Of a stretch of 11,530 nucleotides of DNA, positions 3,653-11,530 are shown one piece after another. The position numbers and the translations under genes are program-made. The notes below the pieces were generated by a model. It saw nothing but the letters and a program-made list of their open reading frames with translations. It ran no database searches and was not told the DNA's origin. The DNA comes from Halobacteriales archaeon (GTDB lineage Archaea; Halobacteriota; Halobacteria; Halorutilales; JAHENH01): positions 1 to 11,530 of the forward strand of contig JAHENH010000057.1 in NCBI GenBank assembly GCA_018609935.1, in the 5' to 3' direction. Every line of letters begins with the position of its first letter. The stretch's first letter is position 1.

Positions 3653-3780
3653 TTTAAACCCTAAAAATAAAAAATTTATAAGATTTTAAAATATTACAAA
3701 AACAATAGTTAAATCCTCAAAAAAATTCTAACTAATCATAAATATTATTTTTTGTAAGATAATTTTTTAATATATAGATT

Positions 3781-4106
3781 TTAACTTAGGTTCTTGAGTT
3801 TTTCTTGGTGGACTATATAAAGTATTTTATTTTTAACTCCAAACATTCCTTTTTCAAAATCAAACGATGCTATAGCCATATTATGTTTTTTCAATAAATT
3901 AAAAACCTTCCTTTTATCTTTCTCTTTATCATTAAAATAAAGTTCTATATCATAAAAAGGATCTTGTTTTTGTATATCTTCAACTTTTTTAACCCATTTT
4001 TGTCCCTCTAATTACCTAAAAATCTACTAACATCATTATTTATATCTTCCATATTCCAGTTAATTAAATATAATTCACTCTCTTTGTTTAAAAAACATAT
4101 AGACAT
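3781..4106 (-). pseudogene. Small unknown protein gene with a single-base frameshift
   Basis: On the minus strand the ATG at 4106-4104 opens 32 codons (MSICFLNKESELYLINWNME...SRFLGN) that end at TAG. One base out of register, the sequence continues as 75 clean codons (EGQKWVKKVEDIQKQDPFYD...KILYIVHQEKLKNLS) to TAA at 3783-3781. Adding one T in the AATT at 4010-4013 would join them through AAT TTA GAG into a 108-residue protein. The second part has no start codon near its beginning and has protein-like composition: charged helices, FYDIELYFND, and a MAIASFDFEKGMFGV strand. It is therefore not a separate gene. It is either a very recent pseudogene or a sequencing error. I do not recognise the family. 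No membrane segment is visible. No clear TATA box sits at the expected distance. Confidence 0.6.
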
Positions 4107-5245
4107 AACTTATAAATCTATTTAATCAGTTGAAAAATTATGTATATATTATTGAGAAAGCTGGTATTGACACTGTGCGATTTTCTATATGTTCTGAATG
4201 TTAAAAGTGAATATAACTATCAAATCATCTTTTTTTATATTATTTTTGGTTTATGGGCTATTTAAAAAAATAATAATATTTATTTATATAGATTGATACT
4301 AAATATATGAAATTGTTTAATCCATTATGGCTTTGGGCAAATACAAGGAACAATCACAAGATAAATAGAAAAGAAAATAAAGAAAAAAAATGAAGAATAG
4401 CTGAAAAATAAATTCAATTTTTGTTTTTTTAATATAATATTTTTTAATATAATCTTTTTATATATCTTTTATACTTCGAGTTTTCACTCTATTTTTCATG
4501 TGTAGATGGAAACTGTTTTTATAGAAAACTCCTGTGTCGAATTGGGATAAAACAAAGATTTAGAATCATTTAAATTATTTTTTTGTATTTAGAATAACAA
4601 AATTAAGCTTTATTTTTTACAATTTTTGTATTCTTTGCAATCTTAGATAAAATCATAGATATCCATTTCTATGCTCTTTTTTGTTTTTTTTGTTATCAAT
4701 TTAAAGGTCTATTCTGGTTCTGTCTATCAATTCAAAGCTGTATTATATTAGTATTATTTTAGGCAATAGTTTGAGAAGTTTCTTGACAAATACTTGTTTT
4801 ATTTTATGAATATGATCCATATTATTCCCCCTATAATAATAGTTATGAAACCTATGAATAGATTTACATTTTCGATATTTATTATTAAGAAAAGATTTGA
4901 AATTACTGGGGTAGAATTTGTATAAAAAATAGGTATAGGAAAGATTGAATTAAAGGAAATTTAGAATATAATTTCATTAAAGATTGGGAAAGTGAATTAG
5001 AAAATATATTTTCTTCATCTTATACTGTTGAGTAATTGGTCTATTTCTACGGCATCTTAGGGTATGATTTAATCTAATGGAATATTTTTAAAGTAAATTT
5101 TAAAGAGAGAATTTCTATAAATATAGAAATGAAAAATTTATACTAGTAAATATATGGTAAGTCTATCTCTAATTATGCAATGGGGTAATATTTTTTATAT
5201 TTCTAGCTTTAAATGTTTAAGTCAGGGGTTCTATAATTAGTTAAG
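4107..5245. other. Gene-poor, probably decayed stretch
   Basis: About 1.1 kb without an obvious gene. Several short frames have protein-like character between stops. On the minus strand, about 4800-4660 reads KQVFVKKLLKLLPKIILI, stop, YSFELIDRTRIDL, stop, IDNKKNKKEHRNGYL in one frame. On the plus strand, 4773-4923 is open for 50 codons, and 4959-5033 reads IKGNLEYNFIKDWESELE...SSYTVE. None matches a family I know; they look like remnants of genes or insertion sequences with accumulated stops. A perfect 8-bp inverted repeat with a 4-base loop lies at 5111-5130 (ATTTCTAT / ATAGAAAT). No tRNA, CRISPR-type repeats or clear terminal inverted repeats were seen. Confidence 0.4.
4307..4393 (+). CDS. 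Possible very small basic protein (28 residues)
   Basis: ATG to TGA encodes 28 residues starting MKLFNPLWLWANTRNNHK and ending in a lysine-rich tail (KENKEKK). A TATA-like TATTTATATA lies at 4281-4290, slightly closer than ideal for a leaderless start. The NPLWLW segment is not what random AT-rich sequence usually gives. Against it, the reading frame is short, it ends in TGA whereas the recognised genes here end in TAA, and it lies in a decayed region. It may be the 5' fragment of a lost gene. Confidence 0.18.
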   Translation: MKLFNPLWLWANTRNNHKINRKENKEKK

Positions 5246-7245: not shown

Positions 7246-7265
7246 TTGACTAACTGGTTAGTCAA
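7246..7265. promoter_or_regulatory. Perfect 20-bp palindrome, probable TetR operator
   Basis: TTGACTAAC (7246-7254), a TG spacer, and GTTAGTCAA (7257-7265) form a perfect two-fold palindrome that ends nine bases before the TetR start codon. Size and symmetry fit a TetR-family dimer site. With a leaderless start at 7275 it would cover the TATA region and the transcription start, so binding should block the promoter of its own gene and of the transporter behind it. The palindrome is GC-richer than its surroundings, which argues against chance. Confidence 0.75.
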
Positions 7266-7274
7266 GATATCTAT

Positions 7275-7880
7275 ATGGTAGATGAGAAAACAAACGAACA
7301 GATAATGAAGGCCACATATACGGCTTTATGTAAAAAAGGGTATGCAGACTTAACGATGCAACATATAGCAAACGAGGCTCAAAAAAGTAAATCAACACTT
7401 CACTATCATTATAATACAAAAAAAGAACTATTTGATTCATTCCTTGAATACTTATATTATAATCTTGAAACCAAACTGGAAACCATACAAGCTGAGAATC
7501 CAGTAGATCAACTTGATAAAACAATAGATTTTATCTTAGACTATAATGATTCACAGGACTATCCTGAACTTCAGATAGCTATCCTAGAAATAAAAACACA
7601 GGCACCATATAATGAAGATTTTAGGGAGAGATTAAAAGAATTTGATAAGCTTCTATGTAAACATTTTGAGCAAATATTAAAGAAAGGGAAAAAACAAAAT
7701 TTTTTTAAAAAAGATATAAATGAAAAAAATACTGCTATGTTTATAATAACATTAATTAATGGATTTCATACTAGAAGAATAGCAATAGGAGATACCAATA
7801 CTTCATTTAAAAATATATTATCTGAATATATCAAGGATTATATATGTATAGAAAAGACAGGAGGTGGGTATATCCTTTAA
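7275..7880 (+). CDS. TetR/AcrR family transcriptional regulator
   Basis: This 201-residue protein has an N-terminal TetR helix-turn-helix at about 8-55: KATYTALCKKGYADLTMQHIANEA, then QKSKSTLHYHYNTKKELF (36-53), with the LHYHY recognition helix usual for archaeal members. The rest is the helical ligand-binding and dimer domain, and the ligand is unknown. It most likely represses its own operon through the palindrome at 7246-7265 and releases it when a compound to be exported binds. No Shine-Dalgarno precedes the ATG, fitting a leaderless mRNA. Its stop TAA is followed at once by the ATG of the transporter, in the same reading frame. TetR next to MATE is a common arrangement in haloarchaea. 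Confidence 0.93.
   Translation: MVDEKTNEQIMKATYTALCKKGYADLTMQHIANEAQKSKSTLHYHYNTKKELFDSFLEYLYYNLETKLETIQAENPVDQLDKTIDFILDYNDSQDYPELQIAILEIKTQAPYNEDFRERLKEFDKLLCKHFEQILKKGKKQNFFKKDINEKNTAMFIITLINGFHTRRIAIGDTNTSFKNILSEYIKDYICIEKTGGGYIL
7859..7866 (+). promoter_or_regulatory. Strong Shine-Dalgarno for the MATE-rhomboid gene
   Basis: AGGAGGTG, a full match to the archaeal anti-Shine-Dalgarno, lies inside the last codons of the TetR gene and ends 14 bases before the ATG at 7881. The spacing is longer than usual. No other ATG, GTG or TTG in a sensible frame stands closer, and the TAA directly before the ATG prevents an earlier in-frame start. Confidence 0.65.
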
Positions 7881-9902
7881 ATGGATATAAAAAGAAAAAT
7901 AAGATCTTTTTTAGAGAATATTAATTCTCCATTTAAACATAGAGATGAATTTGAACTTACATCTGGAGGAATTGCTGGCCCTCTATTTTATCTTTCCTTA
8001 CCTATAGTTATAACAAATCTATTTCAGACAGTATATAATCTTGTAGACACATTTTGGCTTGGAAGATACAGTACAAATGCACTAGCAGCAATAACTTTTT
8101 CTTTTCCATTAGTTTATTTTCTAATTTCTTTAGGTCTGGGAATATCTATAGCAGGAAGTGTATTAGTAGCCCAAAATATAGGAAATAAAACAGAAAAACA
8201 AGCAGAATATGCAGCATCTCAAACAGTAGTATTCGCAGTAATAACATCACTAATACTAGGAGCTATCGGATATCTATATATAGAATATATAATCGCCCTA
8301 TTTGGAGCAGCCCCTGATGTAGTGATTCTTGCTACAGAATATATGCAAGTTATATCACTTGGACTTGTTTTCATGTATGGATTTTTCATTTTTATATCTC
8401 TTATGAGAGGATATGGGGATACAATAACTCCTATGTTAGTAATGTTTGGATCCGTAGTTTTAAACCTAATCTTAGACCCCTTTTTAATTTTTGGATGGGG
8501 GCCATTTATTGAGCTTGGAGTTCAAGGTGCAGCAGTTGCCACAGTTTTCTCTAGAGCCCTCGCAATGTTTCTTGGTATCTGGATAATGTTTAAAGGAAAC
8601 CGAGGAATAGAGATACATATATCTCAGATGATGCCAAACATAACATACATAAAAAAGATATTTATAGTAGGTGCACCAGCATCCATAGAAACAATAAGTA
8701 GATCTTTATCTGTAAATCTAATGCTTTTTATTGTTGGATTATTCTCAACCACAGTAGCAGCAGGGTTTGGCATCGGTATTAGAGTATTGTCTGTTATATT
8801 TATGCCTGCAATGGCGGTAGCTCAAGGTGTAGAAACAATGACAGGACAAAACATAGGGGCAGGGAAATATGACAGAGCAGAAGAAACAAACCATTTCGCC
8901 TCAAAATTAATGTTTTTACTGCTTACTACAATAGGAATAATATCTTGGTTAGCCGCAGAACCAATAGTATCCATCTTCACAATAGATCAAGCTGTAGTTG
9001 ATGTAGGTGTAGAATTCCTACGATATGTAGCACTAACATTTGGATGTATGGGGGTTATGAGGGCATATATAGGAGGCTTTAGAGGAGCAGGTAAAACATT
9101 AACTGCTGCGGTCATATCAATATTAACACTAGAAGTTGTAAGGTTACCTATAGCATGGTTAGTAGCCAACCTTATAGGGCCACCCGGCATCTGGATATCT
9201 TTTGCTATATCAAATATCTTTGGTGCAACCCTAGCTACCATATGGTTTTTAAAAGGAACATGGAAGACTGGGGATTTAACACAACCAGCTAGTGAACCAA
9301 TAGAAAGCAATACTAACTATAATTGTGATTTATTTAAAAAAATAAAGATAACTATTTCACTCTCTATTTTTACTTTATTTATCTCAATACTAGGTTTTTA
9401 TATATCAAATATAAGTCCAACTCTCTTTTTAGAATGGTTTAAAATTCATCCCCCAAATAAATTAACATTAGGATTATTTTTTGGGCTCTTTTCACATGTA
9501 ACCTATCTCCATCTGTTCACTAATCTATTTTTTCTGTTAATATATGGTGGTTTAACTGAAAAATACCTCACAATAAAAGAATATTTATTTTTATTTCTTT
9601 TTTCTGGTTATTTCTCGGGTCTATTACAAACATGGTTTAGCCAAGATTTAGAAGCTGGTATAAGTGGATCTTTAATGGCTCTAATAGGATTTTATACAAT
9701 ACACTATATATACAATAATTATAAAGGACTAACAGATATTAAAATAAAAATTGAAAAACAAGAAACAATAAAGTATACAATGGCGTTAACTGGATTAGTA
9801 ATTATATTCATAGTAATAATATTTCTAGAATCAAAAATAGCGCATATATCCGGAACAATAATAGGAATATTAATCTTTATATACAAGCAATATACAAAAT
9901 AA
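7881..9902 (+). CDS. MATE family efflux transporter fused to a C-terminal rhomboid intramembrane serine protease
   Basis: The 673 residues hold two complete modules. Residues 1-465 are a MATE transporter (12 helices in two repeats): GGIAGPLFYLSLPIVITN and VYNLVDTFWLG (51-61, with D56) open repeat one, and FIVGAPASIETISRS (261-275) opens repeat two. MATE proteins export drugs or organic compounds in exchange for Na+ or H+. A short polar linker (about 466-482) leads to a six-helix rhomboid domain (about 485-672). It has HxxxxHxxxN at H539, H544 and N548, GISG with catalytic S595 (593-596), and AHISG with catalytic H655. Both dyad residues are present, so it should cleave membrane proteins. Twelve preceding helices leave the linker in the cytoplasm, giving the usual rhomboid topology. 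The gene is the second of an operon with the TetR gene. Normal MATE proteins stop near 450-480 residues, so the fusion is unusual. Confidence 0.92.
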   Translation: MDIKRKIRSFLENINSPFKHRDEFELTSGGIAGPLFYLSLPIVITNLFQTVYNLVDTFWLGRYSTNALAAITFSFPLVYFLISLGLGISIAGSVLVAQNIGNKTEKQAEYAASQTVVFAVITSLILGAIGYLYIEYIIALFGAAPDVVILATEYMQVISLGLVFMYGFFIFISLMRGYGDTITPMLVMFGSVVLNLILDPFLIFGWGPFIELGVQGAAVATVFSRALAMFLGIWIMFKGNRGIEIHISQMMPNITYIKKIFIVGAPASIETISRSLSVNLMLFIVGLFSTTVAAGFGIGIRVLSVIFMPAMAVAQGVETMTGQNIGAGKYDRAEETNHFASKLMFLLLTTIGIISWLAAEPIVSIFTIDQAVVDVGVEFLRYVALTFGCMGVMRAYIGGFRGAGKTLTAAVISILTLEVVRLPIAWLVANLIGPPGIWISFAISNIFGATLATIWFLKGTWKTGDLTQPASEPIESNTNYNCDLFKKIKITISLSIFTLFISILGFYISNISPTLFLEWFKIHPPNKLTLGLFFGLFSHVTYLHLFTNLFFLLIYGGLTEKYLTIKEYLFLFLFSGYFSGLLQTWFSQDLEAGISGSLMALIGFYTIHYIYNNYKGLTDIKIKIEKQETIKYTMALTGLVIIFIVIIFLESKIAHISGTIIGILIFIYKQYTK

Positions 9903-11036: not shown

Positions 11037-11530
11037 ATGAATCGTAGAAAATACATAAAAATATCAGGTATAATATTAACAACTTCATTAGTTGGATGTA
11101 TAAACCAGCAAAACAATAACTCAAAAGAAAACCAACAACAAAACATACAAAACAAAACTTCAAACCAAAACCAATCTGTTATTACACCCAGGCTTTCAGT
11201 ACAAAATCAAATAACAAATGGATCAGAAATAAGAATAAATGATATAATCATAGATAAAAAAGCATGGATAACAATACATCAAAAAATAAATAATCAAACA
11301 CAAACTGGAAACAAAATATATGGATACAGAAAACTACCACCAGGAAACTACACAGATATTACTTTAGACCTAATAGAAACAATCAAAAGAAACCAAACAG
11401 TATATGCCTCATTATATTATATACACACAATTGACACTCCAAAAAATATAACAACTACAGATGAACCAATAACAAGCAATGGAGATAAACTACGCAAGTC
11501 TATAGATATATCAATCACACAAAAAAACCA
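11037..11530 (+). CDS. Secreted lipoprotein with DUF7282-like domain, 5' part (3' end outside window)
   Basis: The ATG at 11037 opens 164 codons to the right edge with no stop. The N-terminus MNRRKYIKISGIILTTSLVGC has a twin-arginine-like RRKYIK, a hydrophobic core, and the lipobox L18-V19-G20-C21, so the mature protein should be a lipid-anchored exported protein starting at C21. A linker very rich in Asn and Gln (22-47) follows, as is common in haloarchaeal lipoproteins. From about 52 on, the pattern RLSVQNQ...IIIDKKAWITIHQK...GYRKLPPGNYTDITLDL...QTVYASLYYIHT...DEPIT looks like DUF7282, a beta-sandwich domain seen in halophilic archaea whose function is unknown. It has potential N-glycosylation sequons. 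The start is supported by the signal peptide and an upstream TATA box. The domain call is from memory of the pattern and moderately sure; the lipoprotein call is stronger. Confidence 0.75.
   Translation, partial: MNRRKYIKISGIILTTSLVGCINQQNNNSKENQQQNIQNKTSNQNQSVITPRLSVQNQITNGSEIRINDIIIDKKAWITIHQKINNQTQTGNKIYGYRKLPPGNYTDITLDLIETIKRNQTVYASLYYIHTIDTPKNITTTDEPITSNGDKLRKSIDISITQKN

Follow-up and report, generated by a model that had tools for sequence, protein, structure and literature searches.

MATE exporters are membrane proteins of 12 helices with both ends in the cytoplasm, and in PfMATE the carboxylates D41 and D184 have a role in cation coupling. GlpG-type rhomboid proteases (PF01694) form the other family of interest here. 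A rhomboid that acts on a membrane transporter has been described in B. subtilis, where YqgP cleaves the magnesium transporter MgtE and also serves as an adaptor for FtsH (PMC7231995). The natural substrates of haloarchaeal rhomboids are still to be identified and are named as future work in PMC11985538.

Here we describe one gene from a low-GC relative of haloarchaea which combines a drug-export pump with a complete, active-looking rhomboid, a combination absent from the relatives examined. The gene lies in a stretch of 11,530 nucleotides (the window; GC content 28.5%). Known MATE exporters (PF01554, TIGR00797; solved structures PfMATE 3vvn and 6hfb, and DinF-BH 4lz6) resemble it in the whole core, in the residues D56, N195 and D199 and in predicted fold, but none of 120 listed relatives has a second Pfam domain. 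It departs from GlpG-type proteases in having a 12-helix transporter in front, so that the rhomboid is C-terminal, and in having I for A within GxSG. The likeness to YqgP and MgtE is that of a rhomboid acting on a membrane transporter; in contrast to our case, those two are separate proteins, YqgP senses metal by a cytosolic domain and FtsH is its partner (PMC7231995).

One reading frame and its two halves

Table 1. Position of the fusion gene, its parts and its upstream elements, in coordinates of the window
Feature	Position	Strand	Details and basis
Palindrome TTGACTAACTGGTTAGTCAA	7246..7265		9 bases upstream of TetR start codon; sequence
TetR-family repressor, 201 aa	7275..7880	+	Pfam TetR_N, E 4.8e-9
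Shine-Dalgarno-like GGAGGTG ahead of fusion gene	7860..7866	+	Sequence
MATE-rhomboid fusion gene	7881..9902	+	673 aa, ATG to TAA, zero internal stops
MATE exporter half, residues 1-465	7881..9275	+	Pfam MatE, TIGR00797, relatives, PfMATE alignment, Foldseek
Linker, residues 466-488 (limits are our choice)	9276..9344	+	Hydrophilic, runs into basic FKKIK (485-489)
A7 tract in linker	9336-9342	+	Sequence
Rhomboid half, residues 489-673 plus stop	9345..9902	+	H539, H544, N548, S595, H655

The preliminary description had presented the gene as an in-frame fusion, and this holds: a single frame of 673 codons is uninterrupted, with both Pfam domains above their cut-offs. MatE is found in two stretches (the best at residues 41-200, E 7.4e-61) and Rhomboid at residues 532-667 (E 1.1e-14), the curated cut-offs being far exceeded. 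ATG, GTG and TTG are all absent in frame from residues 440-540, the rhomboid part has no in-frame Met before M599, and the remaining two forward frames contain many stops across the junction. The single frame and the missing start codons near the beginning of the rhomboid exclude that the assembled sequence contains two separate genes. A random open frame is ruled out by the domains, the fold and residue conservation. Synonymous codon use in the rhomboid part gives a gain over uniform use of 0.219 per codon, compared with 0.20-0.34 in the other six genes of the window. Because it fits the rest of the window, foreign DNA joined in assembly is disfavoured, but codon use is blind to a join within one genome.

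Another way to arrive at such a frame would be the loss or gain of a single base, either in the assembly or as a variant in the population, that joins two overlapping or adjacent genes. We considered 264 hypothetical single-base differences between 9240 and 9371: 83 would give the rhomboid its own start codon, and 73 of these 83 would end MATE at most 40 residues past D465. A Shine-Dalgarno-like motif of four bases precedes two of the six candidate starts (9155 and 9242). There is an A7 tract in the linker, and no independent copy of the fusion protein was seen among the matches listed in the searched protein set. However, the error must fall within about 130 bases. Removal of one base from the A7 tract creates no rhomboid start, and addition of one leaves a MATE tail of 54 residues. 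A Shine-Dalgarno-like motif is missing at the starts 9260, 9292, 9323 and 9325 but present, as GGAGGTG, ahead of the fusion gene, and the A7 or T7 tracts in the UPF0182, SDR and TetR genes leave those genes unbroken. We regard a frame error, though compatible with the sequence by itself, as very improbable, and consider the MATE-rhomboid gene a real fusion with high confidence.

Tracts of A7 or T7 are common in this low-GC sequence. Slippage at the tract in the linker would terminate the MATE frame or shift it into another one; it is a guess of ours that some pump without protease might be produced in this way.

The first half of the protein is a haloarchaeal MATE. Its two MatE stretches score 205 bits against the curated 24.9, with repeats that span about 400 residues, and the NCBIfam model TIGR00797 matches residues 41-438 with 259.5 against a cut-off of 147.4. 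Foldseek pairs this half with PfMATE (3wbn, E 2.8e-14), and D56, N195 and D199 align with D41, N180 and D184 in the alignment to PfMATE chains. D56 and D199, the counterparts of the cation-coupling carboxylates, are invariant in all 22 aligned MATE sequences. Haloarchaeal relatives from the protein set share 59-65% identity with this half. Identity to 21 aligned relatives, chosen among the 120 listed, is 58-67%; no full-length MATE above 67% was seen, and one partial stretch, from the sample of 59 class genomes, reached 69%. The 21 relatives stop 12-56 residues past D465 (20 of them within 27), in keeping with the earlier claim that MATE proteins normally end near residue 465, and the fusion protein extends 208 residues past it. 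Going by the function of the family, the MATE half would export a drug with H+ or Na+ coupling.

The second half carries a Rhomboid domain that exceeds the curated score and is predicted to have the GlpG fold. The signature residues H539, H544, N548, G593-I-S595-G596 and H655 all stand where they had been reported, and the predicted model agrees with the proposed six-helix rhomboid. Aligned to GlpG of H. influenzae, the protein has the Ser-His dyad (S595 and H655) and the HxxxN motif (H544-N548). Conservation of the dyad had been put forward as support for a working protease, and it is found: S595 in 44/44 and H655 in 41/44 rhomboid relatives, these being proteins other than MATE fusions.

Pseudoproteases lose catalytic residues. 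In the fusion every one of them is kept, which speaks against a pump whose rhomboid is inactive and works as a membrane anchor or as an adaptor for another protease, like Derlin-type proteins. What fits such an inactive domain is the unusual I594 inside GxSG, a position occupied by A in 43 of 44 rhomboids, together with the service of YqgP as an adaptor of FtsH apart from its own cutting (PMC7231995). The conservation of S595 and H655 leaves this reading unsupported, and we give it a small chance.

Taken alone, the rhomboid half is predicted to be complete enough for independent folding. The full-length model leaves it unresolved, because the alignment used for that model contained no other rhomboid, and has pLDDT below 50 at residues 470-489. 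The linker had been placed on the side of the membrane where MATE ends, which agrees with the known MATE topology and with the basic end of the linker. We conclude that the rhomboid half represents a complete fold with the full catalytic set and is probably active. That both halves are active appears reasonably probable.

TetR gene, palindrome and the rest of the window

The ATG of the fusion gene follows immediately after the TetR stop codon. The preliminary description had set the gene under a TetR repressor, and comparison with other loci agrees with this setting, since the TetR-MATE pair and the palindrome recur in haloarchaea. For the comparison, the best 80 of 332 confirmed haloarchaeal MATE loci were taken. 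In 51 of them MATE is immediately preceded by a co-directional TetR gene; TetR is present within 3 kb in 64, and the other 16 have none like the window's TetR within that distance. In 44 loci the site ACTNACNNGTNAGT occurs in the 1 kb preceding MATE, and in 36 it is absent in this form. This corresponds to 44 sites per 80,000 upstream bases, compared with 6 in the remaining 957,627 bases of the 80 loci. The count is to be read as enrichment and not as a blind test, because the pattern was picked once the site of the window and, in a preliminary way, these loci had been viewed.

The palindrome of the window starts about 632 bases ahead of the MATE start, which is the commonest range in loci with adjacent TetR. 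The window at 7246-7880 thus contains the haloarchaeal TetR-MATE module, that is, a same-strand TetR gene directly upstream and the palindrome. We suggest that TTGACTAACTGGTTAGTCAA is the probable operator of the TetR protein. Because the pair and the palindromic site recur in haloarchaea, co-regulation of the TetR gene and the fusion gene is likely. More generally, ACTNACNNGTNAGT probably serves TetR proteins as a common operator in a haloarchaeal efflux regulon; in some loci a second TetR gene is divergent, and ACTNACNNGTNAGT lies between both. Among the open-licence papers listed, none deals with the TetR-MATE site by its title.

Another gene of the window encodes a UPF0182 protein, which is nearest to that of genome G138 (53%) among 392 genomes sampled. 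G138 comes from the class in which these MATE genes occur among the sampled members, and itself gave no MATE match. An AT-rich segment of about 1.6 kb (3653-5245) has no listed frame above 43 aa; in the whole window, this segment included, there was no Rfam match at gathering score and no tRNA. At 11037-11530 a frame starts that is cut by the window end and has, by eye, a lipoprotein-like signal VGCIN.

Relatives of the rhomboid and the search for a second fusion

The nearest rhomboids among the matches listed are 29-34% identical, haloarchaeal, and either solitary or joined to a different partner. The best of them, L140 (34%) and L141 (32%), come from genomes of the haloarchaeal class and match nearly the whole domain. 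In both, an N-terminal rhomboid is followed by about 260-330 residues without Pfam match; the closest rhomboids found are thus joined to a Pfam-less region and not to MATE, and no MATE lies near them within the 15-16 kb fetched. The next relative, L085, is a solitary rhomboid of 234 aa, 29% identical. A profile search of the protein set gave 69 proteins of 117-300 aa with an identity of 19-35% to the rhomboid domain of the fusion, where an alignment was given. In a tree of 44 rhomboids the fusion's domain sits on a long branch and its placement is unsure. A combined alignment of MATE and rhomboid was set aside, as rhomboids were apparently laid onto MATE.

Two arrangements were noted. Haloarchaeal proteins of 537 and 470 aa have an N-terminal rhomboid and a long Pfam-less C-terminal region (L140, L141, L147, L148). 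In one genome (G024:C1; L105, L116), a rhomboid of 254 aa, Cys-rich at its N-terminus, and a UPF0182 gene are about 0.4 kb apart and on opposite strands.

We found no second protein of this type. Of 2953 significant relatives of the whole protein, the 120 listed lack a rhomboid, all having PF01554 only and a length of 452-518 aa. Residues 470-673 were compared with proteins of 370-1178 aa, and none of 1561 scored candidates was a hit in this search, which depends on shared five-residue words so that distant fusions could escape. Whole-protein matches occurred in 647 plasmid records, 0/647 covering 80% in one place, and the rhomboid part matched two records over 46% of its length. Viral contigs contained no relative and no copy of the junction. 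The rhomboid query matched 74 of 392 phylum genomes, with three frames of at least 600 aa, none of them with MATE, and 167 of 391 class genomes, with no MATE-rhomboid frame among the matches listed; the whole protein matched 58 of 59 class genomes, with nothing past residue 481 among the matches listed; the three samples overlap and barely cover bacteria and other archaeal phyla. No paper describes a MATE-rhomboid fusion in its title or abstract start among the open-licence papers listed.

Long frames deserved separate attention. No MATE was present in 42 rhomboid frames (L081-L129) and 13 more (L140-L152), some frames being counted twice. Haloarchaeal rhomboid frames of 548-649 aa (L122, L123, L124, L149, L150, L151) were rejected as fusions, there being no MATE inside. 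The 14 MATE frames of 582-708 aa among the 80 loci were rejected as well: their extra length precedes MATE, with at most 35 residues behind it. Among the matches listed and loci examined, the addition of a rhomboid is thus seen only in this protein, a singleton.

These data bear on the possibility that the fusion is passive, in other words that the boundary between two adjacent genes vanished in this lineage and the two halves work independently, with shared expression as the sole consequence. It would agree with the single occurrence, with the unrelated settings of the nearest rhomboids (N-terminal with a Pfam-less region in L140 and L141, solitary in L085) and with the predicted ability of the rhomboid half to fold by itself. 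However, no remnant of an own start codon of the rhomboid (ATG, GTG or TTG) is present at residues 440-540. Furthermore, the preliminary description had raised the question of relatives with the two as separate adjacent genes, and the loci gave a negative answer: by BLAST and by profile, no rhomboid was present in the fetched flanks (up to 6 kb, some shorter) of any of the 80 related MATE loci. The same profile recovered the rhomboid in all 41 rhomboid loci fetched by then, some of which were in the profile. The stage of neighbouring genes is thus undocumented. We consider a passive fusion a serious possibility, at somewhat below even chances.

A proposed pump with a tethered protease

The interpretation we favour, with moderate confidence, is a two-domain membrane protein, a TetR-controlled pump with a tethered protease. 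TetR would repress the TetR-fusion pair via the palindrome and release it on binding a toxic compound, probably a lipophilic or cationic one. The MATE half, with its 12 helices and cytoplasmic ends, would then export the compound. The linker would lead the chain back into the membrane, so that the rhomboid takes its usual orientation with the active site opening outward. There are two presumed consequences of this arrangement. Firstly, the rhomboid would be made 1:1 with the pump, solely when the pump is needed, and would be kept beside it. Secondly, it would most likely act on helices in the vicinity of the pump, trimming pump copies that are surplus or damaged, or other membrane proteins that the compound has harmed. 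The clipping of the transporter MgtE by YqgP offers an analogy.

Whether the link between pump and protease was selected is a different matter. We put this forward tentatively, as something rather less probable than its opposite; with a single example, we rate a passive join no less likely. If selection maintained the link, it should be met again in close relatives, and the full-length MATE relatives compared reach at most 67% identity. The preliminary description had suggested a protease that cuts on demand, trims the partner of the pump or releases a signal; these roles are speculative, as no second fusion was found that would show the link to be kept. The fullest version, an export pump with an intramembrane protease of its own, in which the compound relieves TetR and one protein both expels it and cuts membrane proteins next to the pump, is unlikely on present data. 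If it is true, protein turnover or signal release would be coupled, in place and amount, to drug export. The covalent link to a transporter and the position behind a repressor indicate where and when the rhomboid should act, and its candidate substrates would be the pump itself and the neighbours of the pump.
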